Source: Ignavibacteria bacterium (GTDB lineage: Bacteria; Bacteroidota; Ignavibacteria; Kapaibacteriales; Kapaibacteriaceae). Taken from it: a DNA stretch of 64,000 nucleotides. The notes under the pieces are model-generated. The model was not told the DNA's origin. It worked only from the letters and a program-made list of their open reading frames with translations, and ran no database searches. The stretch spans positions 1 to 64,000 of the forward strand of contig JACPPD010000018.1 in NCBI GenBank assembly GCA_016191145.1, in the 5' to 3' direction. This document shows positions 5,459 to 52,156 of the stretch, piece after piece. Each line of letters opens with the position of its first letter. Position 1 is the stretch's first letter. The translations under genes were made by a program, and so were the position numbers.

Positions 5459-6160
5459 GTGCGATTGATAGTTGCGCTCAAGTCGCTGGTTTTTGCTGTT
5501 GTGAATCCTGCGCGGCTTCACGAAGCTCAGGCAGCGTCTGCCACAGCAGTCTTTGCCGTAGCGGTCTTACTGCTGACAACAGCAGAAACCGGACTTGCAT
5601 ATCTCCATGCCGCAGATCCTAAGCTTGAAACTGAGAGTGTCAGAATTTCACTGCCGATGCAGCCGCCGGGGCAAGAAAAGGAGTCGGTTGCATTGTCAAA
5701 TGAGAAACGCCAATTCACTGCTATCATGGGAGGAGCATTACTCAAGACCTTCCTGTCCTTGATAATGTTATCTGCGCTAGCACTCGGTGTTGCACGGTTT
5801 CTAACTGACAAGCAATATTCAGTTTCAATTGCGATTATCTGCGTGTCAGCGGCAACGGGCATCGACCTCGTGCGCTTCCTCGTTGAAACGCCCCTTCACA
5901 TCACCTTGCATACCGTAAGGTTTGGATTGCACCTTGGTGTCTTTGTTGATCCTTCCCAGAATCCACTTTTGTTTTCGTGGCTGCAAAGACTTGATGTGTT
6001 CGGATTATGGTATTATGTTGCGTTATCGATTGGTATTACGACTTCGGAAGGCCTCCACAGAAGGTTCGGCATTGTTGTAGGAGTGATTCTGTTTGGAATT
6101 GTGCAGATTGTTTTTGCAGGACTGACGCTCATCGCGTGGCTAATGAGCGGGAGCATGTAA
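5459..6160 (+). CDS. Yip1-like multi-spanning membrane protein
   Basis: 233 residues with a GTG start 9 nt after the preceding stop. The N-terminus carries a NPARLHEA segment typical of the bacterial YIP1 family. About five hydrophobic segments follow, including one at residues 25-45 and four between about 85 and 230. The C-terminal WLQRLDVFGLWYYVALSIGI-type helix is a hallmark of Yip1 proteins. Function in bacteria is unknown; a role in membrane transport or organisation is only inferred. It sits between the M16 pair and the sigma factor operon. Confidence 0.75.
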   Translation: MRLIVALKSLVFAVVNPARLHEAQAASATAVFAVAVLLLTTAETGLAYLHAADPKLETESVRISLPMQPPGQEKESVALSNEKRQFTAIMGGALLKTFLSLIMLSALALGVARFLTDKQYSVSIAIICVSAATGIDLVRFLVETPLHITLHTVRFGLHLGVFVDPSQNPLLFSWLQRLDVFGLWYYVALSIGITTSEGLHRRFGIVVGVILFGIVQIVFAGLTLIAWLMSGSM

Positions 6161-6200
6161 CCATCGCGGCGTCGGTTGTGTCACCACACCATATCGACAG

Positions 6201-6770
6201 ATGCGTTACAATCCAAACCATAGACGTACACTGGAAGGTGGGCTACTCAGCCAGGTTCTGGAAGAGTTCCGAGATGGTAGCCGTGATGCGTTCAGATTGT
6301 TATACGACCGGTTTGAATATCCCATTTATCGTTTTTGTAAACACCTGACGGGTGACGAGGCAACGGCGCGAGATGCCTTCCAGGAGACTTTCATAAGGAT
6401 GTATGAGCACCGCCGCGAACTGAAGACCGATTGTATTGAGTCGTGGCTGTTCTCCATTGCGCGTCGAGTATGCCTGAACTTGATCCGCATGCGACGCCGT
6501 GAACACGAAGCATTCGATGAATCGCTTCATACCAACGCATCCACTCAGGAGTCCGACGATATTCTAAGAGCCCACCTCTCAAGAGCTCTTTCAATGCTAC
6601 CTATCACTCTCAGAGAGGCAGTCATCCTACGCGATATCGAAGGGTATTCATACTCGGACATCGCCGACATTATTGGAATAGATCTCTCGCTGGCAAAGGT
6701 CCGGGTATACAGAGCACGTTTGATGATGAGACGTATCCTTTCACCAATCGTCACAGAACGCTCTTCATGA
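6201..6770 (+). CDS. ECF-type RNA polymerase sigma factor
   Basis: 189 residues. Region 2 spans about 15-90, with ARDAFQETFIRMY and the ESWLFSIARRVCLN block of region 2.3/2.4. Region 4 spans about 125-180, with LPITLREAVILRDIEGYSYSDIA as helix-turn-helix entry. Region 3 is absent, as in extracytoplasmic-function sigma factors. The stop codon overlaps the next gene's ATG by 4 nt, the usual coupling of a sigma factor to its regulator. Direct targets cannot be read from the window. The surrounding envelope genes make an envelope-related regulon plausible. Confidence 0.92.
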   Translation: MRYNPNHRRTLEGGLLSQVLEEFRDGSRDAFRLLYDRFEYPIYRFCKHLTGDEATARDAFQETFIRMYEHRRELKTDCIESWLFSIARRVCLNLIRMRRREHEAFDESLHTNASTQESDDILRAHLSRALSMLPITLREAVILRDIEGYSYSDIADIIGIDLSLAKVRVYRARLMMRRILSPIVTERSS

Positions 6771-8074
6771 ATATTGATCAGCTCATATCGGCCTATCTCG
6801 ATGGAGACCTCACACCAGAGCAGGATGAGCTTCTGAGAGCACAAATCTCGGCAGATCATGCAGCCCACGATGCCTTTGATGCTGCAGTGATACTCCACAT
6901 CTCGATGTGCTGCGAAGACAGAACCGAGGTTCCGCCAAATCTTAGAAAGCTTGTATTCGAAGCTATTGAAGGATCGGCTGTACAGGTATCATCGGGTAAG
7001 ATTAAAAACCTCACATTCGTTGATGGTCGAAAGATTGGTGCATTGGTAGCCATGCTATTCCTGTTTTGCCTGCCCATTACAGATAGTTTTCTCGAATTGA
7101 ATTCTTTCCTTGAGCTCTCCGATCTTGCTAAGGTGAATGAATTCACGATTGAAGCAAATGCTGAGAAAACTCTAATCGCCAAGGTTCACACCATGGATGT
7201 AATCAGAGAATCACCTGATGGCATTAGTAGACAGTCGATAGAGAATGCGCTGGTTGGGGATGACGAATTCGCTGCTCAACTTACTATCAACCATGAACCA
7301 CATTCGTCGAATTTCCACCAGAGTGCAGAGCACCCGAGCCTCGAGCAACCAACATTGAATAGCTTTTTTAATCAGCCCCTTACCATTGCTTCCCAATACA
7401 AAGATCGTGATGCTATCTTCTCAACTGAGCAACCAGGCAGCGAAATTCCGAGAACGCCCATTACGTTGTCGACCGTTTATGCCACGGGCTTCGGTTCTGC
7501 TGCATCCGGCGCCACTGACATTAGCCAGGTTGCTGCCAGCATTGGTTACGAAATGGGAAAAGAAGATTTTGTCGGGCTGGAATTTGGTGCCACATCGTAT
7601 TCAGTCGAGTACACATCATCATCACTTCTGGGAACGTCGGAAGGAGCTTCGCTCACTTCGCAGGTGCCAATCAATGTTTCAATGACGCCTCAAGCATCGG
7701 CTGTGCAGATACCTGTGGAGCAACCATCAAAACTTGCTTCGCCGGACCCTGTAACTACGCATTATTCAGCCGGCCAGTTTACAACATTTGCCAGACAGTC
7801 AACCGTCTGGGGGACGGCATTTTATGAACGCAGACTCATCACTTTGAGTTCTCTTTCACTTAATGCTCGTGCTGCTGCTGGCGTTAGCGAGGATGGCGTT
7901 TTAGGATATGGTAGAATACTCGGCGAGTGGGAGGTTGGGGGCGTTGTATCACTAGTGATTGGAAGTGAGTTGCGGACGATGCCATTCAGAACAGGGACAC
8001 GAAATAACAACCAGTCAGCAATTAACTACGGAACCATTTTAACAGGATTGACAGGCATTCATGTTCGGTTTTAA
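6767..8074 (+). CDS. Anti-sigma-factor-like membrane protein with C-terminal barrel-like domain
   Basis: Translationally coupled to the ECF sigma factor (ATGA overlap). Residues 1-80 are cytoplasmic and resemble anti-sigma N-termini (SAYLDGDLTPEQ start). The HxxxCxxC zinc signature is missing. One transmembrane segment lies at about 89-105. A long Ser/Thr/Pro-rich stretch follows. From about residue 225 the sequence alternates in amphipathic strands (VYATGFGSA, VAASIGYEM, VGLEFGATSY) and ends in GIHVRF with a terminal Phe, as in outer-membrane beta-barrels. Regulator function is inferred from position; the barrel is inferred from pattern only. Similar sigma-linked barrel proteins occur in Bacteroidota. 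Confidence 0.65.
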   Translation: MNIDQLISAYLDGDLTPEQDELLRAQISADHAAHDAFDAAVILHISMCCEDRTEVPPNLRKLVFEAIEGSAVQVSSGKIKNLTFVDGRKIGALVAMLFLFCLPITDSFLELNSFLELSDLAKVNEFTIEANAEKTLIAKVHTMDVIRESPDGISRQSIENALVGDDEFAAQLTINHEPHSSNFHQSAEHPSLEQPTLNSFFNQPLTIASQYKDRDAIFSTEQPGSEIPRTPITLSTVYATGFGSAASGATDISQVAASIGYEMGKEDFVGLEFGATSYSVEYTSSSLLGTSEGASLTSQVPINVSMTPQASAVQIPVEQPSKLASPDPVTTHYSAGQFTTFARQSTVWGTAFYERRLITLSSLSLNARAAAGVSEDGVLGYGRILGEWEVGGVVSLVIGSELRTMPFRTGTRNNNQSAINYGTILTGLTGIHVRF

Positions 8075-8147: not shown

Positions 8148-10199
8148 ATGGGACTTATCGCTACGCGTTTTGCCATAACATTATTTGTTGTGGCGTGTTC
8201 ATTTGTATATGTATTATCAGCACAAATACGTGCCCCTTTCAGCACGCCAGTAAAGCACCTCAACGAAATGCTACCTCTTACAAACCAACCAGTAAGGTGG
8301 GTTGGTTCAGTTACCGATGAACGGCAGCCTGTTGTTGTCTCTACATCGCCGATTCTCATTCCCTCAAGAAAAGTTAAGAATGAAAACCTTGTGCAGGCTG
8401 AAGGTGTTGGCGCCAAGGTTGGTTTTACCTATTACGATTTTCAGACAAATGCGTCGATGCCTAACAGATTGACGTATTTCCAGGATGGTTCCGACAAGTA
8501 TCTTCAGATTCTATGGATGACGTCGAAAGATTCAACACGTGATGCTACCACCCGTATTCCGGGCTTTAATGTCTCCAGAGGAAGCCATTACAACTTTCTT
8601 GATGCATTAGATCCCGACAATCTTTCTGTTGGAATCGAGAATTGGCAAAAGATTGAAGCTGAACGGGCTGGCTGGCCATCGATTGTACAATTCGATGATG
8701 GATCAATCGGCACGCCATCCCATACACCGATACGATTTTACGCTAATGCAGGTGTTGGCGATGAGCAATTTGTTGAGGTTTCTTCGGTGAGCACTAATCC
8801 AGATACGGATTTATGGCCCAGAGCTGCAATCGATGGGCAGAATAACGTTCATTTGATTTACAATAAATCCCAAGGTACTAATAATGCTGGTCCCTACCAG
8901 GTTATATACCGAAGGTCGTCAGACGGAGGTTCGTCGTGGGGACCAGAGGTATATTTAACAGGACCAACAGCAGTGTATTGGCCACAGGGAGTAACTGGCA
9001 CTAATATTAATGGTGCCGGAGGCGACACATACTCGATAGCAGCACGTGGTTCAAATGTCGTTGTGGCATTTCACGACTACCTGCGTGTTTGGTATCGCAA
9101 GTCAACTGATTACGGCCAAACATGGGACGATCCAACGAGTGGACTTGGAATTGTATACAATCCAACTTACACGTATGTCGATTCCGCGTACATAGGTGTT
9201 GACAGCATCGAGGTATACAGCGATACTGTTCCAGCATTGTCTACAATGTCCGACGTGATCATTGATTCTGAAGGAAAAGCCCACTTTGCAATCGGCCAGT
9301 ACCTTGGTTACATCGTGCAGCGTGGTCTTGCAGACCCTTCTTCGCCTCGTACTAATTATGTTAATTCCGTCAATTCCGATGCACTTCATAAGAACACAGG
9401 AATTTGGTATTTCAAAGAAGGCGATACTCTAATCTATACGGTTGGTTTTGCAGGCGGAGGCGAGTGGGATGGAGAAGGCACAATTGTAAGCCGAAGAGCG
9501 CTGTCTGGCTCGAGCAGATACCCTCAGCTTGGTATTGATGCTCAGGATAATATCTACCTTGCCTATACATCAGTTAAGACAGGAGATATTTTGCCAATGC
9601 AAATCGATACAACTCCAAAGTACAGCCAAGCCGAGCCCGATACTCTTAGTAATGTAAATGGTCTGTTTGGCCACATCTACCTCACTCATAAGTTTAAGAA
9701 TTATCCGATGTGGTCGGCACCGGTGAATATGACTCCCGACGGTTCAAACAGCCTTTTTGCAACGCTGTGCGACGATGTTGTGAATAGCAGGTTGTACGTT
9801 GCTTACAGTGTGAGCGACGTCCCTGGAGATCGGGTAACCAACGTTGAACTTGCTGCAACTCCTGCTGATATCTACGTCAATGCATTCGATGCTAATCTGT
9901 TGAATCCAATCACAAGTGTGGATGAAGGTGACGCAGTATCGGGGATAGGAATTGCGGTATTACCAAACCCAGCAGACGAATTTGCCCGTGTTAGCCTAAC
10001 AGGTGTAACCGGTGGAAGAATTAGTGTGTCCGTTGTTAGTACGGATGGACGTCGTGTTGCACAATCGTACAGTCCGAGCGTTGCGAATGACATTAGGGAA
10101 CTTGTTATTCCGACGCGTGACTTGTCGACTGGGGCATACCTGCTTGTTGTGGAGCAAGATGGTTATGCCGTAACGCACAGACTAGCTGTTGTTCACTGA
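8148..10199 (+). CDS. Secreted T9SS cargo protein with BNR/Asp-box repeats
   Basis: Start chosen at ATG 8148, which has a clear Shine-Dalgarno AAGGAG at 8136-8141. The frame extends upstream to 8061 but without a site. A signal peptide ends near VLSAQ. The 683-residue protein contains sialidase-type Asp-box motifs (SSDGGSSWGP, STDYGQTWDD), which mark beta-propeller blades, though no catalytic sialidase residues can be asserted. The last ~75 residues form a type A T9SS sorting domain: VLPNPADEFARVS, then STDGRRVAQ and STGAYLLVVE. Probably exported across the outer membrane and cleaved or anchored by the T9SS. Confidence 0.85.
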   Translation: MGLIATRFAITLFVVACSFVYVLSAQIRAPFSTPVKHLNEMLPLTNQPVRWVGSVTDERQPVVVSTSPILIPSRKVKNENLVQAEGVGAKVGFTYYDFQTNASMPNRLTYFQDGSDKYLQILWMTSKDSTRDATTRIPGFNVSRGSHYNFLDALDPDNLSVGIENWQKIEAERAGWPSIVQFDDGSIGTPSHTPIRFYANAGVGDEQFVEVSSVSTNPDTDLWPRAAIDGQNNVHLIYNKSQGTNNAGPYQVIYRRSSDGGSSWGPEVYLTGPTAVYWPQGVTGTNINGAGGDTYSIAARGSNVVVAFHDYLRVWYRKSTDYGQTWDDPTSGLGIVYNPTYTYVDSAYIGVDSIEVYSDTVPALSTMSDVIIDSEGKAHFAIGQYLGYIVQRGLADPSSPRTNYVNSVNSDALHKNTGIWYFKEGDTLIYTVGFAGGGEWDGEGTIVSRRALSGSSRYPQLGIDAQDNIYLAYTSVKTGDILPMQIDTTPKYSQAEPDTLSNVNGLFGHIYLTHKFKNYPMWSAPVNMTPDGSNSLFATLCDDVVNSRLYVAYSVSDVPGDRVTNVELAATPADIYVNAFDANLLNPITSVDEGDAVSGIGIAVLPNPADEFARVSLTGVTGGRISVSVVSTDGRRVAQSYSPSVANDIRELVIPTRDLSTGAYLLVVEQDGYAVTHRLAVVH

Positions 10200-10250: not shown

Positions 10251-13200
10251 ATGATCAATAGGTACATTGTTGCCGCATTACTGTGTTTTGTCCTTTCCAT
10301 TTCGTCTGTTTTCGCCGGAATCACAGGTATTGTGACGGGGAAAGTTACAGACAAGGAAAACAAACCTGTGGGTGGAGTAACGATTCGAGTATTGGGTACG
10401 AACCGTGGTGGGTTCTCTAAAAACGACGGGACCTACGTAATCACGAACGTTGCGGCAGGTACATACAACGTGCGGGCTACGGTTGTTGGATATGATACGG
10501 TGACGCGCGAAGTTGTAATCTACGTCGACCAGACGGTTAAGCTCGACTTTGTGTTAACAGAGGGTGGCATAACTACTAAAATTATCGACGTTAGTGCAAG
10601 CAAGGACATAATACGCTCCACCGACCTTGGGTCGAACCGAACGGTGAAGGGTAGCGATATGACAAGGATTGCTCGCGATAATATTGCGTCAGTCATCTCA
10701 CTTCAGCCAGGTATTACTGCTTCCGGAAACAATTTCATTGTTCGGGGTTCGCGTACCACTGAAACGCAGGTACTCGTAGACGGGCTCACGGTAACGGATC
10801 AGTTCACAGGCGGACTTGGTCAATCAGGTTCAACGGTTTCTGCGGCTATGCCAAGTCCCTATGCAACCGAAGAAGTCCAGGCACAGACGGGTGGTTTTGG
10901 AGCTGAATATGGGAATGCCGTTGGAGGCATCGTTAACACCGTTGTTAAAACAGGGCGTACGGATAGGTACGATGGTGTTGTGCGCTGGAGAAAGGATGTA
11001 CCCTTTCTTTGGGGAAACGCAGGTAATGGTGTTGAAGCCGGTTTCCCATCCGAAGATGTAGTTGACGTAGCGATGGGCGGTCCGCTCGGCATTAGTAGCT
11101 CTACATTTTTTGTTTCTGTTCGCAACACCTTTCAACTGTATCGGAATTATGGTTTGCAGGTATACGACCCTGCCAACTACAACCTCGGAATGTTACCTAA
11201 TAATAGAACGTGGTCCAGAAATATTACAGGACGGTTAAAGTTTGCTGTCACGAATGACGTTACATTGCTGTTAGGGGGCTTGTATGGCCTTGTTAATGGT
11301 GAACGATCTTCGCAGACGTGGCTTTATGCAAGCCAGGAAGGTTTTCGTGTTGACAACAATGGGATCCCAATTCTGGATAACAATGGTAATTACCAATACA
11401 ACGGCTTTACGGAGCGTTCTGCTAAACAAATTGTTGTGCAGGAATTTTCGAGCAATGCATTTGCTCAAATTAATCATCAACTTGGTGAAAATACCTTTTA
11501 TGAACTTAGAGCTTCATTCAATACCAAGATAACTGAAACTGGTAAGCGTGTTTCGAATGCAGCGCCTGACATATTGTCCGGCTGGAATCTGTATTACCCG
11601 GTAGATCAGATTCGTTTTGAAGGTAACAATTATACTAAGGGCGCTAACCAGGTGCTGGATGCTTATGAATACTTGCGGACAACGCAACTCAGCGCAGACG
11701 GGTATCAGCGGTTGGACGTAACTCGTCCAAATCCGATTACGGGGTTTATTGAAGGTCCAGCCGACTACCAAACAACGGCGAATCCGTACGGATTGCTGGG
11801 ATATTTTGCAAAATATGGCAATGAAGGCGGCATCGATTTCAGAAAAGCCACTTATTGGCAGGCAGACGGCAGTATCACACATACCACTACGTCCGGTGAC
11901 ACACGGCACATTATTAAAGGTGGTTTTGAATTACGTCTGTTAACATTGGTTAGGCATACAAATGGTAATCCCTGGGATGGTAATCCTTTTTACGATGTTT
12001 ACGGATCCGGGTATGGTGGAAACTTGTACTACGTAATAGACACTGCTAACTTGGCAAAAAGTCAGAAAATTCTTGAACAGTCACTTCAACCTTTTCAACC
12101 CGTTACTGGGGGAGTTTATTTCCAGGACCAGATCATTTTCAAGCGTCTCGTCTTTACACCCGGTTTTCGATTAGACTATCTTGATCCTCGTGCGCTATAT
12201 CGAACATCACCTGAATATTTTGTCGGTATTGGTTCCGATACGGGATTTGCTCAGGCCAGCAAGAAATTTTATTTCAGCCCGCGCCTTTCGGTAACCTATC
12301 CAGTAAGCGATGATGGCAGACAGAATTTCAATTTGTCGTATGGCGTTTACTACCAGGTCTCACCGTTCTCAAATTACTTTGATAGTTTCAACGTATCCAA
12401 TCTGCGTCCTAGCTCGTTGTTAGGCGATCCTAACCTTAATTTGCAGAGTACGAATCAGTATCAGGTATCGTATAACCACCAGCTCTCAGACAATTTTGCA
12501 CTAACGGTTACCGGATATTATAAAGACATTTATAATCAGCCCGACATTGCCTACGTTCGCGCGGTTCCGATTCCGTACTATCTGCAAACAGTTTCTGCCT
12601 ACGGAAATTCACGCGGCATCGAATTCACATTTATAAAGCGCACGGCTGACAACTGGGGTTTTAACATCAATTATACTCTTGCTTCAGCAACAGGAACGGC
12701 AAATAACAACACAACAATTGTTACAGAGGATCCACAGACTGGGCGACCAGCGTTTCCTGTAGAGCCATTCCCTCTCTCGATCGATAGAAGGCATCGTATA
12801 GCTGGGAGTATTACGTTTCAATGGAACAGAGACGAAGGTCCCCGCATTGGTGGAATCCCCTTTCTGGAAAACTTTAACTTTAACATCTCGGGAATTTGGC
12901 AGACCGGTGTCCCATACACTCCGGTTAACGCGCAAGGCCAGGCTATCGGTGCAATCAATTCTGGCAGATACCCGGCATCTTGGAATTCTGAGCTGCGTGT
13001 GATCAGAACTATTCCACTTGCTGGCTTTCTTGGCGGTCAGACCGCGCTTGACCTGATTCTTGACGTATCCAACCTGTTAAACTACACCGGTGCAATCTCA
13101 TTCTACACCACGACGGGTGATCCGGATTATGACGGAACAACTCTAAACAGGCAGATCGGATCGTTTGCGTCCACGCTCTATTACAGGGATGCAGATCCAA

Positions 13201-13406
13201 AGAACAAGGCGACGACAGACGCGCAACAGTACGACAGGGTTGGTAATCGTTTATACAATAACATTGTTGATTATAATAGCGATGGCGTTGTAACGCCGGA
13301 AGAAACCTATCAAGGCTACCGGAGATACGTTCAGGATGTTGTTAACCGACGCAACAACTACCAGTATCCTCGCCAGGTGTTCTTTGCTCTTGCCTTCAGA
13401 TTTTAA
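10251..13406 (+). CDS. TonB-dependent outer-membrane receptor with carboxypeptidase-regulatory-like N-domain
   Basis: 1051 residues, SD AAGGA 7 nt before the ATG. A signal peptide to about residue 23 is followed by a CarboxypepD-regulatory-like beta-sandwich (25-105, with GKVTDKENKPVGGVTI). The plug domain spans about 115-240, with IVRGSRTTETQVLVDG and a GGIVNTVVKTG segment. A 22-strand-type barrel runs to the C-terminus, which ends ALAFRF with terminal Phe. No SusD homologue is adjacent, so a SusCD glycan system is not supported. Its neighbours are a large exported protein and a PorV-like protein, a set often seen together in this group. Residues 1007-1018 form an EF-hand-like loop. Substrate unknown. 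Confidence 0.9.
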   Translation: MINRYIVAALLCFVLSISSVFAGITGIVTGKVTDKENKPVGGVTIRVLGTNRGGFSKNDGTYVITNVAAGTYNVRATVVGYDTVTREVVIYVDQTVKLDFVLTEGGITTKIIDVSASKDIIRSTDLGSNRTVKGSDMTRIARDNIASVISLQPGITASGNNFIVRGSRTTETQVLVDGLTVTDQFTGGLGQSGSTVSAAMPSPYATEEVQAQTGGFGAEYGNAVGGIVNTVVKTGRTDRYDGVVRWRKDVPFLWGNAGNGVEAGFPSEDVVDVAMGGPLGISSSTFFVSVRNTFQLYRNYGLQVYDPANYNLGMLPNNRTWSRNITGRLKFAVTNDVTLLLGGLYGLVNGERSSQTWLYASQEGFRVDNNGIPILDNNGNYQYNGFTERSAKQIVVQEFSSNAFAQINHQLGENTFYELRASFNTKITETGKRVSNAAPDILSGWNLYYPVDQIRFEGNNYTKGANQVLDAYEYLRTTQLSADGYQRLDVTRPNPITGFIEGPADYQTTANPYGLLGYFAKYGNEGGIDFRKATYWQADGSITHTTTSGDTRHIIKGGFELRLLTLVRHTNGNPWDGNPFYDVYGSGYGGNLYYVIDTANLAKSQKILEQSLQPFQPVTGGVYFQDQIIFKRLVFTPGFRLDYLDPRALYRTSPEYFVGIGSDTGFAQASKKFYFSPRLSVTYPVSDDGRQNFNLSYGVYYQVSPFSNYFDSFNVSNLRPSSLLGDPNLNLQSTNQYQVSYNHQLSDNFALTVTGYYKDIYNQPDIAYVRAVPIPYYLQTVSAYGNSRGIEFTFIKRTADNWGFNINYTLASATGTANNNTTIVTEDPQTGRPAFPVEPFPLSIDRRHRIAGSITFQWNRDEGPRIGGIPFLENFNFNISGIWQTGVPYTPVNAQGQAIGAINSGRYPASWNSELRVIRTIPLAGFLGGQTALDLILDVSNLLNYTGAISFYTTTGDPDYDGTTLNRQIGSFASTLYYRDADPKNKATTDAQQYDRVGNRLYNNIVDYNSDGVVTPEETYQGYRRYVQDVVNRRNNYQYPRQVFFALAFRF

Positions 13407-13429
13407 CCTTGAAAATTCGATTGGTGAAC

Positions 13430-16400
13430 ATGAACATGAAAAATCAGCTCAATCACATCGCTCATTTTGGTAAGTGGATTGCACTTGCTGCATTCTTTTC
13501 AACCATTGGGATTACAACGGCCATTTCAGGCACTGCCAACAGCGGAGCGGCTAAGAAGAATGGAGAAGAAGTTCAGCGCGCTGTAAATGGTGCCTTCGAT
13601 TTACAGAGGAATGTTGTGTCGCGCATCGACTTTTACACGACTAACTATGGAATTTTCGGCCTCAATATCAGAAGTCAACGAGGTGGAACGTTTTGGCCCA
13701 GAGGATCAGATAACCAATACATTTTTGGCAGTGGAGTATGGTTTGGAGCACTGAAAATAGATAAAGCAGGTGTGTTAAAGAAGAGAACTTTGGTCACATA
13801 CAATCCAAACTCAGGTCAGTCCTGGGTGGTACCGGGAACTATTGAGGATGGCGAATTACTCAGCCAAGATGGCAATGCCATCAATAAAAACAGGTTGTAT
13901 TTCTCGTCGGATTTTAACCAGTATAATGGTGTTGATTTTTCAAACCCGACATATCCTTTGTGGCCGATTTGGGACTCTTCACCAAGCGATACTCTTAGAG
14001 TAAATAATTACTTTGGGTATTATGTCAATGACATTACGCAACGGGACCGTGCGCTTTTCACTAAGGGTCCGGCTTTTATTTCGGGAGAAGATGTATTCAG
14101 TGTGTACAAGGACACCGACCTTTCGTGGTACGAGGGCGGTAAGGCGAAAAGAGAATCAGAAGGATTTCCCCTTGGATTCCAGATTGAGCAGATGATCTAC
14201 TCGTGGGGCTTTGGAGACTACGCCGATTTTGTTTTTCTCAAGTATATGTTCATTCATCCAAAGCAGTTTCCGGACACGCTGAAATCTTGTTGGATGGCTT
14301 CGATTCAGGATGTTGACATAACACTAGGTACGAACCCAATTAGCGGAGCAGAAAATGATAGAGCTAAGTACTACGACGTTGTTGATACTCTGAATATGGC
14401 AATCCAATGGACAGATAATACAAGAGGAGAGGCGAATAGGGGCTTCGGATATCTTGGATTTACCTTCCTTGAAAGCCCTGCAGTTGATGCAGACGGATTC
14501 ATTCGAAAAGACAAGAAGCAATTTAAGGTATCTGAACAATTAGGGCTTAGGACCTTTAAAACCTGGCCTATTTTACAAGATCCTCTTGAAAGTGATGACC
14601 GATATAACTTTATGTCCGGCGGAAACTTTGATCCCGACTTTGGTCCGGGAGACAGAAGAATGCTGATGGCTACGGGACCCTTCAATATGCGTCCCGGAGA
14701 TACAGCGCGTATCGTGGTGGGTATTATTCTGGCTGCAACCTCAAGCGGGAAAGATGCAACGGGCACACCTGAGGATACAAAGGAAATCCAGCGCAAGGTT
14801 GAATTCGCTCAATTTGTTTACAACAATCAGTTTCGCGCCCCGGAAGCGCCGAATCTTTCCGTTATTAAGGGCTATCCGACTAGCAGTTCCATATTCTCTA
14901 TTCCCGAAGCGGGATGGATGGGTTTAAACAATGCAGTGGCCATACAATGGGATTCTACGGCAGAACTATCGGTGGACACTCTTGAAAATGGACTTGATTT
15001 CATGGGCTATAGGATCTATCGAGCCCGCCGTACAGATCTCGACACATACAATATCGACTACCAACCGAATAACCGCAAGGGACCACTTGCTTGGAAAGAG
15101 ATTGCTGTAATACCCTTGCCACCAATTTATTTGAAATCGCAAATCATTGTTGAAAGGGCAGGAATACCAATCGATGATTTTGAAATCGTTCAGAAGGTTA
15201 AAGCCAGTGACAGAAGAATACTTGTCAAGAGGAAAGAGTCGAATGCATCTCCATGGTGGGGATATTGGCTTCAGCTACTTGGAAAAAGGGATTCTTCTGT
15301 AGTTGAGGATTTCTACAAACTTAATCCGGGTACGGACTCCACAATAAACTTGAACCTCAGAGATAGGTTCGATTCTGTAAAGTTCGTGTATTTCACGATG
15401 GTTAACGATAGTCTGCCACCTGTGAATTGGAATGCATATACGATAACTGGGCAACCGGGAACATATTATCGTGTTGACTCGGCGGAAGCTGCAAGAGCCA
15501 AGGACACGTTAATGGCTCTCATTCAACGGCAAAAAGTCAAAATGCAGCAGTTCTTGTTTGACGATACTGTACATGTAAGAAATCCCGACAATAGCGTGAG
15601 CGTGGTGCCAATCAAGCGTCCTTTTGAGGAACTGTATTTCGTCAGGCATGGATTGATTGCCCCTTACATGAAGACGGCTAGCCAGGATAGGATTTCTCTT
15701 GACTTTGGAGACGACAATCCGAAGGATGGCATTGTTTCGTACGATCCGGATCCCGAAAAGTCGGAGAAGCTTATTAATAACGTTGATTACTATTATGCCA
15801 TCAGGGCGTATGATGAAGGTGACTTTGTCCAGCAAACTGAAAGCAAATTGAACTTTCATGGATTGGGCGCACTTAATACAGTTACTGCAACTCCTCTTGC
15901 CTCCCGCCCGGGATATGATGTCTCGTATGATTTTTCATTGCTTGAATCAGACAAACCCAAAATCGGTGGCATTTATAATCTCAAACTCCAGGTTCAAAAC
16001 GAACAGTTGTTTAACCAGCTGTTCGCTGGCAGAACGCTGGAACTTGAGTTTTTCCGAAGCTGGCTGGGAATAGATCACGATGCCGCTCAAACCAATCAAG
16101 ACGTTGGCGCATACGGTGTTGTAATGAAATTGAGGGATTCTGCCTCAAGACAGCTTCTTGCCACATGGGAGTCGTTGCTTCCACCTCAGCTTTGTGGTGG
16201 CGATGGATCAACGTACGGATATTTCTCAGAGAATGCACTCGTTTACGTAGACATGAAGCGTCGCATAAGAGAAGACTCTACACTTAGTGCAACAGAACCG
16301 ATTTACGATACGGTTCGAAATTCCATTTCTGGCGAGATAATTCGCATCGATACAACAACGTTTCACCTTCCGGATAATACCGAAAAAGTGCTTCGTGGCG

Positions 16401-17779
16401 GCCATTACACAACTACAGCCTCGTGTTTTGGCGGGAAATATGCATTGGGAACCGTCGGTATCTCGTTTGATTATACCATTGAACAGTGGGGTGGTCAATT
16501 CCGTCCGGGAAAAACTGCTGATGTAATCTCCGGTCCAGGCAACATGTACATTGGTACCTCCAACGTTGGTCTTGCATTTGTATACAACAACGGTGCCGCC
16601 TACCCCATCCCCAACCGTCCTCCAGCATACATTGATCCTCCCTTCCCTGGTTGGGATACTCTTGCCGCACGTGGTCAGTGGCAAGCAAGTTATAATAATG
16701 GCCCTGGAATCTATGAAGTAACTTTTAGTGAAGGGGGCACGGAAGATATTACGACCTCATTCCTGCTGAGCAACCTTGTGGGTGACGAACCTGGAAAGGA
16801 ATCAGCAATGGTATTCCCGAATGTTCCCTACCTAAATATGTCGGTTCGAAATGTTTCGGAGTACAAACGGCCGGATCAGAGACCGGATGGTACGCTTTTG
16901 GAAGAAACGGTGAGCTACCCATTTGACTATGCTGCTTATAGCGAACCGTATCCCACGGAGGATTCTGTTCGGAAGGTTTATCCTAATCAGGAAGCAGTTC
17001 CAATTGGTTCTTTTGCTGCTGCTGCATACGGAAATCGAAATTCACGTGCAGGGTATACTGAATCACGATACCGACGTTTTCTTGCAGCAGACTTGAATTC
17101 TGGAAAACCGTTAGGACTTGGCCGATATTACGTATCGCGTAATGTTTCAACAGCGGGGAAGGACACGCTGGACTTTGTAAATATATTGACGTTCAGTGGC
17201 TGTCAGTTTACGATCGATTTCTCGTGGTTTCAACGGAGAAATGCAAGCTGGCCAGCCACTCCTAATTCATCCTTAAGGCCGTCTGAATATCCGGCAGAAG
17301 ACTTTAAACCTGGCGATAAAATCAGGCTTTATGTCTATGGCGGAGCGCTCGGGTACCCATTTGACGGGGCTAAGGCTTTTGCTCACGTTAATCAGTATGA
17401 TCCGGAATTGATGGCGAGAGAATATTCAGATGACGACCTCTCGCAGGTTCAGGTTGTACCCAATCCATACTACGTTACTCACGAAGGTATTCGTTCACCA
17501 TTTGAAGGTCGGCTCTATTTCACGAGACTGCCCAGGCGGGCTACGATCAGCATCTTCACTACTAACGGAGATTTAATCCGCAAGTACGAGCACGATGAAT
17601 CGACAAGTGAAAATCCGTCGACGTTTGGTACTTATGTGTGGGATTTGCTTTCGGGTAATAATCAGCGAGTTGCAAGCCAAATGTTAGTCGCTAAGATTGA
17701 AACACCGAGCGGTGCCAGCGTAATAAAGAAGTTTACGGTTGTTGTTGGACCTGCCAGAATTCCATCAGGAGGGGAGTAA
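13430..17779 (+). CDS. Very large exported protein with fibronectin-like regions and FlgD/sorting-like C-terminus
   Basis: 1449 residues from ATG 13430; the frame opens at a TTG at 13409, and another ATG lies at 13436. A signal peptide around residues 8-35 is followed by a conserved-looking region (IDFYTTNYGIFG, IFGSGVWFGALK). Around residue 790 there is a fibronectin-type motif (DYYYAIRAYDEGD). The end, from about VVPNPYYVTHEGIR, resembles the FlgD-Ig/T9SS-like C-terminal beta-sandwich (ISIFTTNGDLIRKY, GTYVWDLLSGNNQRVASQ). I do not recognise a catalytic domain. It lies 23 nt after the TonB receptor and 4 nt before the PorV-like gene, so the three probably act together at the cell surface. 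Confidence 0.7.
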   Translation: MNMKNQLNHIAHFGKWIALAAFFSTIGITTAISGTANSGAAKKNGEEVQRAVNGAFDLQRNVVSRIDFYTTNYGIFGLNIRSQRGGTFWPRGSDNQYIFGSGVWFGALKIDKAGVLKKRTLVTYNPNSGQSWVVPGTIEDGELLSQDGNAINKNRLYFSSDFNQYNGVDFSNPTYPLWPIWDSSPSDTLRVNNYFGYYVNDITQRDRALFTKGPAFISGEDVFSVYKDTDLSWYEGGKAKRESEGFPLGFQIEQMIYSWGFGDYADFVFLKYMFIHPKQFPDTLKSCWMASIQDVDITLGTNPISGAENDRAKYYDVVDTLNMAIQWTDNTRGEANRGFGYLGFTFLESPAVDADGFIRKDKKQFKVSEQLGLRTFKTWPILQDPLESDDRYNFMSGGNFDPDFGPGDRRMLMATGPFNMRPGDTARIVVGIILAATSSGKDATGTPEDTKEIQRKVEFAQFVYNNQFRAPEAPNLSVIKGYPTSSSIFSIPEAGWMGLNNAVAIQWDSTAELSVDTLENGLDFMGYRIYRARRTDLDTYNIDYQPNNRKGPLAWKEIAVIPLPPIYLKSQIIVERAGIPIDDFEIVQKVKASDRRILVKRKESNASPWWGYWLQLLGKRDSSVVEDFYKLNPGTDSTINLNLRDRFDSVKFVYFTMVNDSLPPVNWNAYTITGQPGTYYRVDSAEAARAKDTLMALIQRQKVKMQQFLFDDTVHVRNPDNSVSVVPIKRPFEELYFVRHGLIAPYMKTASQDRISLDFGDDNPKDGIVSYDPDPEKSEKLINNVDYYYAIRAYDEGDFVQQTESKLNFHGLGALNTVTATPLASRPGYDVSYDFSLLESDKPKIGGIYNLKLQVQNEQLFNQLFAGRTLELEFFRSWLGIDHDAAQTNQDVGAYGVVMKLRDSASRQLLATWESLLPPQLCGGDGSTYGYFSENALVYVDMKRRIREDSTLSATEPIYDTVRNSISGEIIRIDTTTFHLPDNTEKVLRGGHYTTTASCFGGKYALGTVGISFDYTIEQWGGQFRPGKTADVISGPGNMYIGTSNVGLAFVYNNGAAYPIPNRPPAYIDPPFPGWDTLAARGQWQASYNNGPGIYEVTFSEGGTEDITTSFLLSNLVGDEPGKESAMVFPNVPYLNMSVRNVSEYKRPDQRPDGTLLEETVSYPFDYAAYSEPYPTEDSVRKVYPNQEAVPIGSFAAAAYGNRNSRAGYTESRYRRFLAADLNSGKPLGLGRYYVSRNVSTAGKDTLDFVNILTFSGCQFTIDFSWFQRRNASWPATPNSSLRPSEYPAEDFKPGDKIRLYVYGGALGYPFDGAKAFAHVNQYDPELMAREYSDDDLSQVQVVPNPYYVTHEGIRSPFEGRLYFTRLPRRATISIFTTNGDLIRKYEHDESTSENPSTFGTYVWDLLSGNNQRVASQMLVAKIETPSGASVIKKFTVVVGPARIPSGGE

Positions 17780-17783
17780 ATAA

Positions 17784-18875
17784 GTGCTCAATTATAATAA
17801 AATGTTACTCGCTTCAAGAATGTTGGCAGCGGCAGTTGCGGCCTTGCTGATTTTCTCGGTCCAATCGCACTCCCAGGTGGTAAAGGTAACTGCGGGCGAA
17901 CTCTCGAAAGTGGGTTTGTCGGGAGGACAGTTTTTGAAAATTGGTGTTGGCGCCCGTGCCGGAGGGATGGCCGGAGCTTACAGCGGAATCGCAACCGACG
18001 CAAGCGCTATTTTTTGGAATTCAGCCGGTGTTGCATTCGTCGATGGCTATGCTGTCGACTTCAGCCAAACGTTTTGGTTCGCCGGTATGTCGCACAGTTT
18101 TGCTGCAGGAATCATCCCTCTTTCAGACAAATTTAGAATTGCTGCCAGCTTTACTGCATTTAGCAGCGGCGATGTTGAGATTACTACAACTGGGCAGCCC
18201 GATGGCACCGGTGGTATCTACAATGTCAGTGATGTTGCTTTTGGGTTGACTCTTGCCGGGAAATTAACTGACCAGTTTTCATTTGGCGTGACTGGCAGAG
18301 CCATCAACCAAGCGTTTTCAAATTTGTCGGCCACGGGTTTTGTATTTGACATCGGCACGCGTTACGAAACTGGTTTTAATGGAGTTGTCATCGGCTTTAC
18401 CGTAAACAATCTTGGTTCTCAATTAGCTTATGATGGGGCTGATGTTACCCGAACAAACCAGGCAATTAAAGGTGTCGATCAGACGGCTATAGATATGCAG
18501 ATACAAACATCTTCGTATAATGTTCCTCTGTCTTTCAGGGCAGGTCTCGGCATCGATATGTTTAAAGGCATTGTTGCTGATGCTCCAGAAACGGCTGATG
18601 ATGGGACTGACATTCATCAGTGGATTGTTGGCGCCGATTTCGAAACGTTTTCAGATGTTAGAGAACAATTTGCGATTGGCACTGAATACACGTTTCGAGA
18701 GTTTATCTCCGTCCGTGCAGGGTATCGCTTTGGACAGGACCAATTCGGCGCATCTGGCGGAATCGGCTTGAAATATGTAACAGGTGATTTTAAAGGCAAG
18801 CTCGACTATTCGATAACGCCTACTCAAACACTTGGCCTGATTAATCGTGTTAGCGTAGCCATCAATTTTGAATAA
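17784..18875 (+). CDS. PorV/PorQ-family outer-membrane protein (UPF0164 type)
   Basis: 363 residues. The GTG at 17784 is preceded by a strong AGGAGGGG (17767-17774), so I prefer it to ATG 17802. A signal peptide ends near SHSQV. The family block follows: FLKIGVGARAGGMAGAYSG, then ATDASAIFWNSAGVA, then repeated beta strands and a C-terminus ending VSVAINFE. PorV proteins are FadL-like barrels that shuttle T9SS cargo to the attachment complex, and PorQ-like members have related roles. Its place directly after two exported proteins and before the GWxTD protein agrees with a T9SS function. Confidence 0.82.
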   Translation: MLNYNKMLLASRMLAAAVAALLIFSVQSHSQVVKVTAGELSKVGLSGGQFLKIGVGARAGGMAGAYSGIATDASAIFWNSAGVAFVDGYAVDFSQTFWFAGMSHSFAAGIIPLSDKFRIAASFTAFSSGDVEITTTGQPDGTGGIYNVSDVAFGLTLAGKLTDQFSFGVTGRAINQAFSNLSATGFVFDIGTRYETGFNGVVIGFTVNNLGSQLAYDGADVTRTNQAIKGVDQTAIDMQIQTSSYNVPLSFRAGLGIDMFKGIVADAPETADDGTDIHQWIVGADFETFSDVREQFAIGTEYTFREFISVRAGYRFGQDQFGASGGIGLKYVTGDFKGKLDYSITPTQTLGLINRVSVAINFE

Positions 18876-50927: not shown

Positions 50928-51593
50928 TCAGTCAAGTCGTTCATTTGATTGTGTTAGAAGTTGATGTTCGAATTCAGTGGGAGTCATGTAATTGATTCCT
51001 GAATGTAAACGCTGATGGTTGTAGAAGAGATGCACCCATCTGTAGACGACTGAACCTGCTTGACGAAGATCGTCAAAGAGTTTGTGATCGTGAAGTTCTG
51101 CTTTCATTCTTGACCAAACCGATTCCATTGGCGCGTTGTCGGAACAGTTTCCGACTCCGGTGGCGTCGATGCTTTGCACGATGTTGCGTTTAGCAAGCTC
51201 GGTTTTAAAGATGTCGGCATTGAATTGACTTCCTCGGTCGGAATGAAAGATCACCGGCTCGGAGGGTAGATGCCGCCGCAACCTGCACGCTTGAGCTAAT
51301 GCATGCAGAAGTGTTTTGGTCTGCATCGAATGCGATACGGTAACTCCGAGAATACGTCGAGAACAAAGGTCCATGATGGCAACAGCATACGCTTTACCGT
51401 TGCGGCATGGAAGCTCCGTGAAATCGCTCAGCCACACTTTGTCTGGATGCTGAATATCAAACGCACGCTGCAAGAGGTTTGCTGCCGGTGCCCGTGTTTG
51501 CGATGAATCTGTTGTTGGCCGATACCGGCGCTTTGCCGATACACGAATGCCAAGAGTGTACATGAGTCGCTCAACGGTCTTGTGCGTGATCAC
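50928..51593 (-). CDS. IS3-family transposase orfB (N-terminally incomplete)
   Basis: 221 residues from GTG 51593; the frame stays open to 51743, where it meets orfA, and includes YGSPRITSELRKSG, the start of the conserved HTH_21 region. The rve integrase core has the DDE residues: WLSDFTEL, FHSDRGSQF and APMESVWSRMKAE. The C-terminal YNHQRLHSGINYMTP motif is present. Normally expressed as an OrfAB frameshift fusion; no slippery site is obvious here. Likely non-functional because of the upstream deletion. Confidence 0.85.
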   Translation of the reverse strand: MITHKTVERLMYTLGIRVSAKRRYRPTTDSSQTRAPAANLLQRAFDIQHPDKVWLSDFTELPCRNGKAYAVAIMDLCSRRILGVTVSHSMQTKTLLHALAQACRLRRHLPSEPVIFHSDRGSQFNADIFKTELAKRNIVQSIDATGVGNCSDNAPMESVWSRMKAELHDHKLFDDLRQAGSVVYRWVHLFYNHQRLHSGINYMTPTEFEHQLLTQSNERLD

Positions 51594-51923: not shown

Positions 51924-52156
51924 AACATTATCTCACCTTCGGATGTCTGGTGCATTAGAGACGAAATACATAGGTTCGTCGGCAAGGATAACGCATGCGA
52001 GTGTTTTTCAGTATTTAGATTTGGATTAGTGTCGATTGCAGGTTGAACACATCGTAAATAAACTTAAAACTGATCAGATTTTTTCCCATCCCAAACAGGG
52101 ATGTAACCGAAGCAATCGTGGACTGTCTCCAACCGCTCTTCGATCACAGACAAGTA
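51924..52156. other. Short spacer between IS and terminator
   Basis: No supported gene. Short open stretches on the minus strand do not join the T9SS remnant on the other side of the IS in any one frame. AT-rich. Confidence 0.4.

Follow-up and report, generated by a model that had tools for sequence, protein, structure and literature searches.

The 435-residue protein encoded directly behind an ECF sigma factor gene in the DNA analysed here (a 64,000-nucleotide stretch of Ignavibacteria bacterium contig JACPPD010000018.1, hereafter "the window") is probably a membrane-tethered class I anti-sigma factor with an eight-stranded outer-membrane barrel as its sensor. The features on which this reading is built, and the genes that follow them, are these:

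6156 to 6182, forward strand: ECF-type promoter TGTAAC-N17-TGTC before the sigma gene (exact motif match)
6201 to 6770, forward strand: ECF sigma factor, 189 aa (Sigma70_r2, 2.1e-13; Sigma70_r4_2, 1.5e-13)
6767 to 8074, forward strand: anti-sigma protein, 435 aa (ORF and family evidence)
6767 to 6991, forward strand: its cytoplasmic anti-sigma domain, residues 1-75, four helices and no zinc ligands
7034 to 7087, forward strand: its inner-membrane helix, about residues 90-107, with K/R on the N-terminal side (hydropathy)
7088 to 7453, forward strand: its variable periplasmic linker, about residues 108-229 (alignment A1, linker lengths)
7454 to 8071, forward strand: its C-terminal eight-strand domain, residues 230-435, a probable outer-membrane barrel (strand map, topology score, face composition)
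8148 to 10199, forward strand: secreted BNR-like protein with a T9SS sorting domain (TIGR04183, 23.7 bits, cut-off 23); its ORF is called from 8061, the likely start being 8148
10251 to 13406, forward strand: TonB-dependent receptor (Pfam CarboxypepD_reg and Plug), present in 21 of 21 loci
13409 to 17779, forward strand: large exported protein with no Pfam family (cluster 3, in 19 of 21 loci)
17784 to 18875, forward strand: PorV/PorQ-family protein (NF033709, 176.7 bits, cut-off 90)

An earlier note on this DNA had described a protein coupled to an ECF sigma gene, with an N-domain lacking a zinc signature, one transmembrane helix, a long linker, and amphipathic strands ending in a terminal Phe, and each part of that outline is borne out. 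The start ATG of the anti-sigma ORF overlaps the TGA of the sigma ORF by 4 nt; neither CxxC nor HxxxCxxC occurs in the N-domain of any of the 65 untruncated family members; and a hydrophobic helix, the only one in the window protein, is present in all 65 members scanned. From the end of this helix to the first strand the linker measures about 120 residues in the window protein, with a median of 151 and a maximum of 223 across the 65 members. Residues 230-435 of the window protein are arranged as eight alternating amphipathic strands, the last residue being Phe435. These counts leave out four of the 69 window-type copies, which run off their sequence, as well as ORFs shorter than 250 aa and identical C-termini.

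Because a full-length ortholog exists at 67% identity and full-length relatives are found across the order, this architecture is more than a chance arrangement. The window protein, used as query, matches 30 of 60 relatives; alignment A1 (29 rows) matches 73 of 123 genomes and 41 of the 51 genera of the order at E 1e-20 or better. In a phylum sample of 395 genomes, 149 match at E 1e-3: among the matches listed, 19 are full-length, all within the order, and most of the rest are confined to the N-domain. Same-plan copies and paralogs with weaker similarity extend to other families of the class (loci L052, L053 and L055), and 17 paralogs were collected. The viral contigs searched gave no relative, and none of the papers listed in literature searches was seen to describe this family. 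One match (L032) was dropped: its ORF resembles, by eye, a HemW-like enzyme, and no sigma gene was found with it.

The sigma gene lies directly upstream in all 63 testable members, in most of which it overlaps the start of the anti-sigma gene, and the same position is found in 17 of 17 paralogs; according to PMC7406223, only 6% of Bacteroidetes ECF genes have a class I anti-sigma partner nearby. The two genes are also lost together. In all 13 copy-less loci examined (nine in the window's taxonomic family, where there are 12 copy-less genomes, and four outside it) both are absent and the neighbors are kept. In the nine same-family loci the gene order runs unchanged from the M16 peptidases through a 233-aa membrane protein and the T9SS protein to the receptor, with only the sigma and anti-sigma genes gone (one of these loci, L285, ends inside the second peptidase gene); in the pair-bearing loci L286 and L287 the pair separates the 233-aa protein from the T9SS protein. 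Because both genes are present or absent as a unit, there is strong evidence that they form a functional sigma/anti-sigma pair.

In the window protein, the sole Pfam hint for the N-domain comes from zf-HC2, which matches residues 3-25 below threshold (19.3 bits, cut-off 22.2). At E 0.1 or better, zf-HC2 is matched by 14 of 29 members, and NF052375 by 11 of 29, the window protein not among them. AlphaFold2, run with two sequences, models helices at residues 3-11, 17-29, 31-51 and 57-75, with moderate confidence over residues 1-40 (pLDDT 61-77), lower values beyond, and less than 50 for the fourth helix. In a VIA-align fold comparison, in which a Z below 8 may reflect merely a common arrangement, the top row for residues 1-52 is RsiW (5wuq_D; Z 7.0, 1.8 A over 52 residues), rows two and three are MucA (8z6g_E and 6in7_A; Z 6.2 and 5.7), and rows four and five are unrelated complexes (Z 5.6). 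That RsiW and MucA fill the first three places is nevertheless unlikely to be an accident. The predicted pattern fits the class I definition in PMC7406223 (four helices, three on sigma4 and the fourth on sigma2, with zinc-less forms known), and the likeness to the class I domains of RsiW, RseA, MucA and RskA lies in the four-helix N-domain, its first three helices making a bundle, and in the existence of zinc-less versions. RseA itself appears in a full-profile PDB sequence search at E 0.62 only; matches to FAM155A over the helix region in the same search were set aside as chance.

RsiW, RseA, MucA and RskA end in short or soluble extracytoplasmic parts, whereas the window family ends in a barrel-like domain. 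One rival reading makes the window protein a conventional class I anti-sigma factor of the inner membrane, with a soluble up-and-down barrel or sandwich as its periplasmic sensor and no part that reaches the outer membrane. Several results are compatible with such a sensor. A topology score obtained by dynamic programming, with approximate propensity tables, gives median z values of 3.26 for the family, 3.37 for the paralogs, 3.71 for OMP_b-brl_2 proteins and 5.70 for the C-termini of Dma (dual membrane-spanning anti-sigma) proteins, and among the soluble controls 0.45 for T9SS soluble ends and 3.08 for YceI barrels, which thus score much like the family. None of 29 members matches a barrel family of Pfam or NCBIfam, OMP_b-brl and OMP_b-brl_2 included, and hhalign against OMP_b-brl_2 proteins gives 0.2-0.4% probability, leaving the C-domain with no homology to known OMP families. 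The earlier note had proposed structure prediction of this region as a way of telling a barrel from a soluble sandwich; AlphaFold2 with the window protein and L031 as its only two sequences was uninformative, yielding no barrel and no usable model of the C-domain (pLDDT 30 at full length, 28 for the C-domain alone). Covariation (81 sequences, effective number about 70) ranks closure of strand 1 on strand 8 at 1, 1, 9, 26 and 36 of 56 across five settings, and so varies with the setting.

Because the alternation score is equally high for YceI, it was dropped as proof of a membrane barrel and the composition of the strand faces was used instead. The controls were 30 YceI ORFs and 17 T9SS soluble ends; on the membrane side, the OMP_b-brl_2 loci tried (L129-L157 and L061) supplied 17 usable ORFs, L137 looking wrong-frame. 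The polar face of the family has 20.5% Gly, 4.5% Lys, 10.9% Asp plus Glu and 8.8% Phe/Trp/Tyr, close to the OMPs (21.7, 2.1, 11.4 and 7.5%) and far from the soluble YceI barrels (7.7, 13.4, 23.5 and 0.3%): Gly is abundant on it and Lys, Asp and Glu are scarce, as in OMP_b-brl_2 proteins and Dma C-termini and unlike YceI. A conserved nonpolar core likewise marks YceI and, as in OMPs, is absent from the family: the median column entropy of the nonpolar and polar faces is 1.42 and 2.25 in YceI, compared with 2.16 and 2.23 in the family. By a classifier trained on the controls only (76 of 82 correct in leave-one-out), 62 of the 65 members are OMP-like, as are 16 of the 17 paralogs; the window protein scores 0.9998. 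The classifier gives the same label to four of the 17 T9SS soluble ends (12 of 17 when trained against YceI alone). Of the 65 members, 38 end in Phe and 19 in Leu (57 in all), and the linker is never shorter than 97 residues. Taken with the composition, these features speak against the soluble sensor, which appears unlikely.

Other details of the domain can be read in the same light. The turns between strands 2-3, 4-5 and 6-7 are 4, 5 and 3 residues long and the other connections 9, 27-108, 5 and about 12, as would be expected if both ends of the C-domain face the periplasm. The polar face carries conserved charged residues (E272, E354, R368, R383, E401 and R403), and G270, E272 and G372, all on that face, are invariant, alongside conserved Gly. 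The barrel-like C-terminus of the earlier note is supported by composition and topology and left as it was by structure prediction and covariation; an outer-membrane barrel is the best reading and, with fairly high likelihood, the right one. That a single chain reaches from the sigma factor to the outer membrane, as that note had suggested it could, is something we infer from the arrangement of these parts.

The sigma gene is preceded by its own signature. Of 59 loci, 44 have an exact TGTAAC-N(15-19)-TGTC upstream of it and another 10 a copy with one mismatch (54 in all), the spacer being 17 in 47 of the 54 motif-bearing loci; 590 shuffles gave no exact match and seven with one mismatch. The motif is not a feature of the paralog loci, of which 1 in 15 has it exactly. 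Since the promoter motif precedes the sigma gene, autoregulation is implied. A second TGTAAC-N17-TGTC, at 10004-10030 on the forward strand and about 220 nt before the receptor gene, is not claimed as a promoter because it lies inside the coding end of the T9SS protein and is also present in 4 of 13 loci that lack the sigma pair; perhaps it reflects codon constraint only. A third site, at 52102, has no gene start nearby on its strand. In the same part of the window, an ORF at 50928-51593 on the reverse strand resembles, by eye, an IS3-type integrase.

Downstream, 17 of 21 loci have a secreted protein, of one or the other of two kinds, in the position after the anti-sigma gene; upstream, the M16 peptidases and the 233-aa protein occur in 7 of 21 loci, those of the window's taxonomic family. 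The receptor gene is the next but one in 17 of 21 loci and the next in the other four, a proximity that would suit FecR-type cell-surface signaling, with the adjacent TonB-dependent receptor giving the signal and the C-domain merely docking. In FecR-type signaling, too, an outer-membrane event reaches an ECF sigma factor; as described for those systems, however, the barrel is a separate TonB-dependent receptor, whereas here barrel-like and anti-sigma domains lie in one chain. The receptor in the window has CarboxypepD_reg and Plug domains and no STN-type signaling domain among its Pfam hits, the anti-sigma protein has no FecR-type match, and the receptor stays where the sigma/anti-sigma pair is gone. 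Signaling of this kind is very improbable here.

The idea of one chain spanning both membranes has already been published for the Dma proteins of gut Bacteroides, which are described in PMC13088901 as having an anti-sigma domain, one transmembrane helix, a long disordered tether and a C-terminal barrel, with the sigma gene adjoining. The window family appears to be a version made of unrelated-looking parts: the first three elements of the Dma plan are supported in it, and the barrel is supported by composition and topology. Dma2-like genes beside DUF4943 occur in genomes of the same phylum, and loci gathered through that neighbor (18 of 20 aligned as A3, with L118 and L128 left out) have the same domain order and sigma pairing. 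The NF058625 sigma family (GFO_1088) was tried as another lead to Dma and given up, since in L063-L074 it is followed by genes with short products of 139-264 aa.

Is the window family then a genuine Dma branch that has diverged far, or was the same plan put together independently? Domain order and gene pairing are as described for Dma2 in PMC13088901, and the best full-length hhalign match between the two profiles reaches 20% probability, over a stretch of 14 columns. The N-domains compared separately reach 1.5%, however, and the C-domains 1.5%. Dma C-domains match OMP_b-brl and OMP_b-brl_2 proteins (96%), with the Dma2-like L109 and L124 hitting PF13505, whereas the C-domains of the window family fall outside OMP_b-brl/OMP_b-brl_2. 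The families differ also in N-domain sequence type, sigma clade and genome context. In a sigma tree (25 of 59 window-type sigmas drawn at random, rows not matching the window sigma dropped), the sigmas of the Dma2-like loci form their own 100/100 branch, and the window-type sigmas cluster with the sigmas of their paralogs (86/99). The Dma partner is an ECF21-type sigma according to PMC13088901; window-type sigmas fall outside the Dma-locus branch that would bear this label. Membership in the Dma family seems a poor prospect, and independent origin from Dma would be the plain reading of these comparisons. The wider proposal, that two-membrane anti-sigma factors have at least two origins in Bacteroidota, one being Dma and an independent one the window family (a class I domain joined to an undescribed eight-stranded outer-membrane barrel, the sigma factor reading the outer-membrane or surface-assembly state through one chain with no receptor partner), stands at about even chances.

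The source genome has other sigma-linked proteins. In 3 of its 13 sigma loci the sigma gene is followed by an anti-sigma protein of the window's kind. In one paralog (L102; G000:C17, 217-1422, reverse strand) the linker resembles a leucine-zipper coiled coil at a score below cut-off (PF00170, 21.3 bits); such a coil could dimerize or stiffen the tether. At L105 (G000:C5, 1710-2768, forward strand) the gene behind an ECF sigma gene encodes 352 aa, with a single transmembrane helix near residue 49 and, at the C-terminus, a type A sorting domain of the T9SS (TIGR04183, 27.6 bits, cut-off 23); the protein may be an anti-sigma factor connected with type IX secretion. In a further sigma-linked transmembrane protein (L099; G000:C11, 1695-2624, forward strand) the C-terminus looks TPR-like, at scores below the cut-offs. 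Sensor parts seem to vary among the anti-sigma factors of this genome.

For the window protein as a class I anti-sigma factor with an outer-membrane barrel, the following sequence of events can be proposed. The N-domain (residues 1-75, four helices) would hold the ECF sigma factor encoded just upstream, the signal-anchor helix would fix the protein in the inner membrane and leave its N-terminus in the cytoplasm, about 120 disordered residues would serve as a tether across the periplasm, and residues 230-435 would be inserted in the outer membrane. Failed barrel assembly or a change in the outer membrane could be the trigger, and tension or regulated proteolysis would then release the sigma factor. 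Once free, it would fire TGTAAC-N17-TGTC, giving more of the sigma/anti-sigma pair, and would probably also raise the surface operon: the T9SS cargo, the TonB-dependent receptor, the large exported protein and the PorV-family protein.

The order-wide promoter motif and the clean absence of the cassette in close relatives provide ready natural controls. If the C-domain is what it appears to be, it represents a barrel family missed by the profile libraries used here. And if the proposal as a whole is true, coupling of outer-membrane state to transcription through one chain would be a recurrent solution, and not a peculiarity of Bacteroides.
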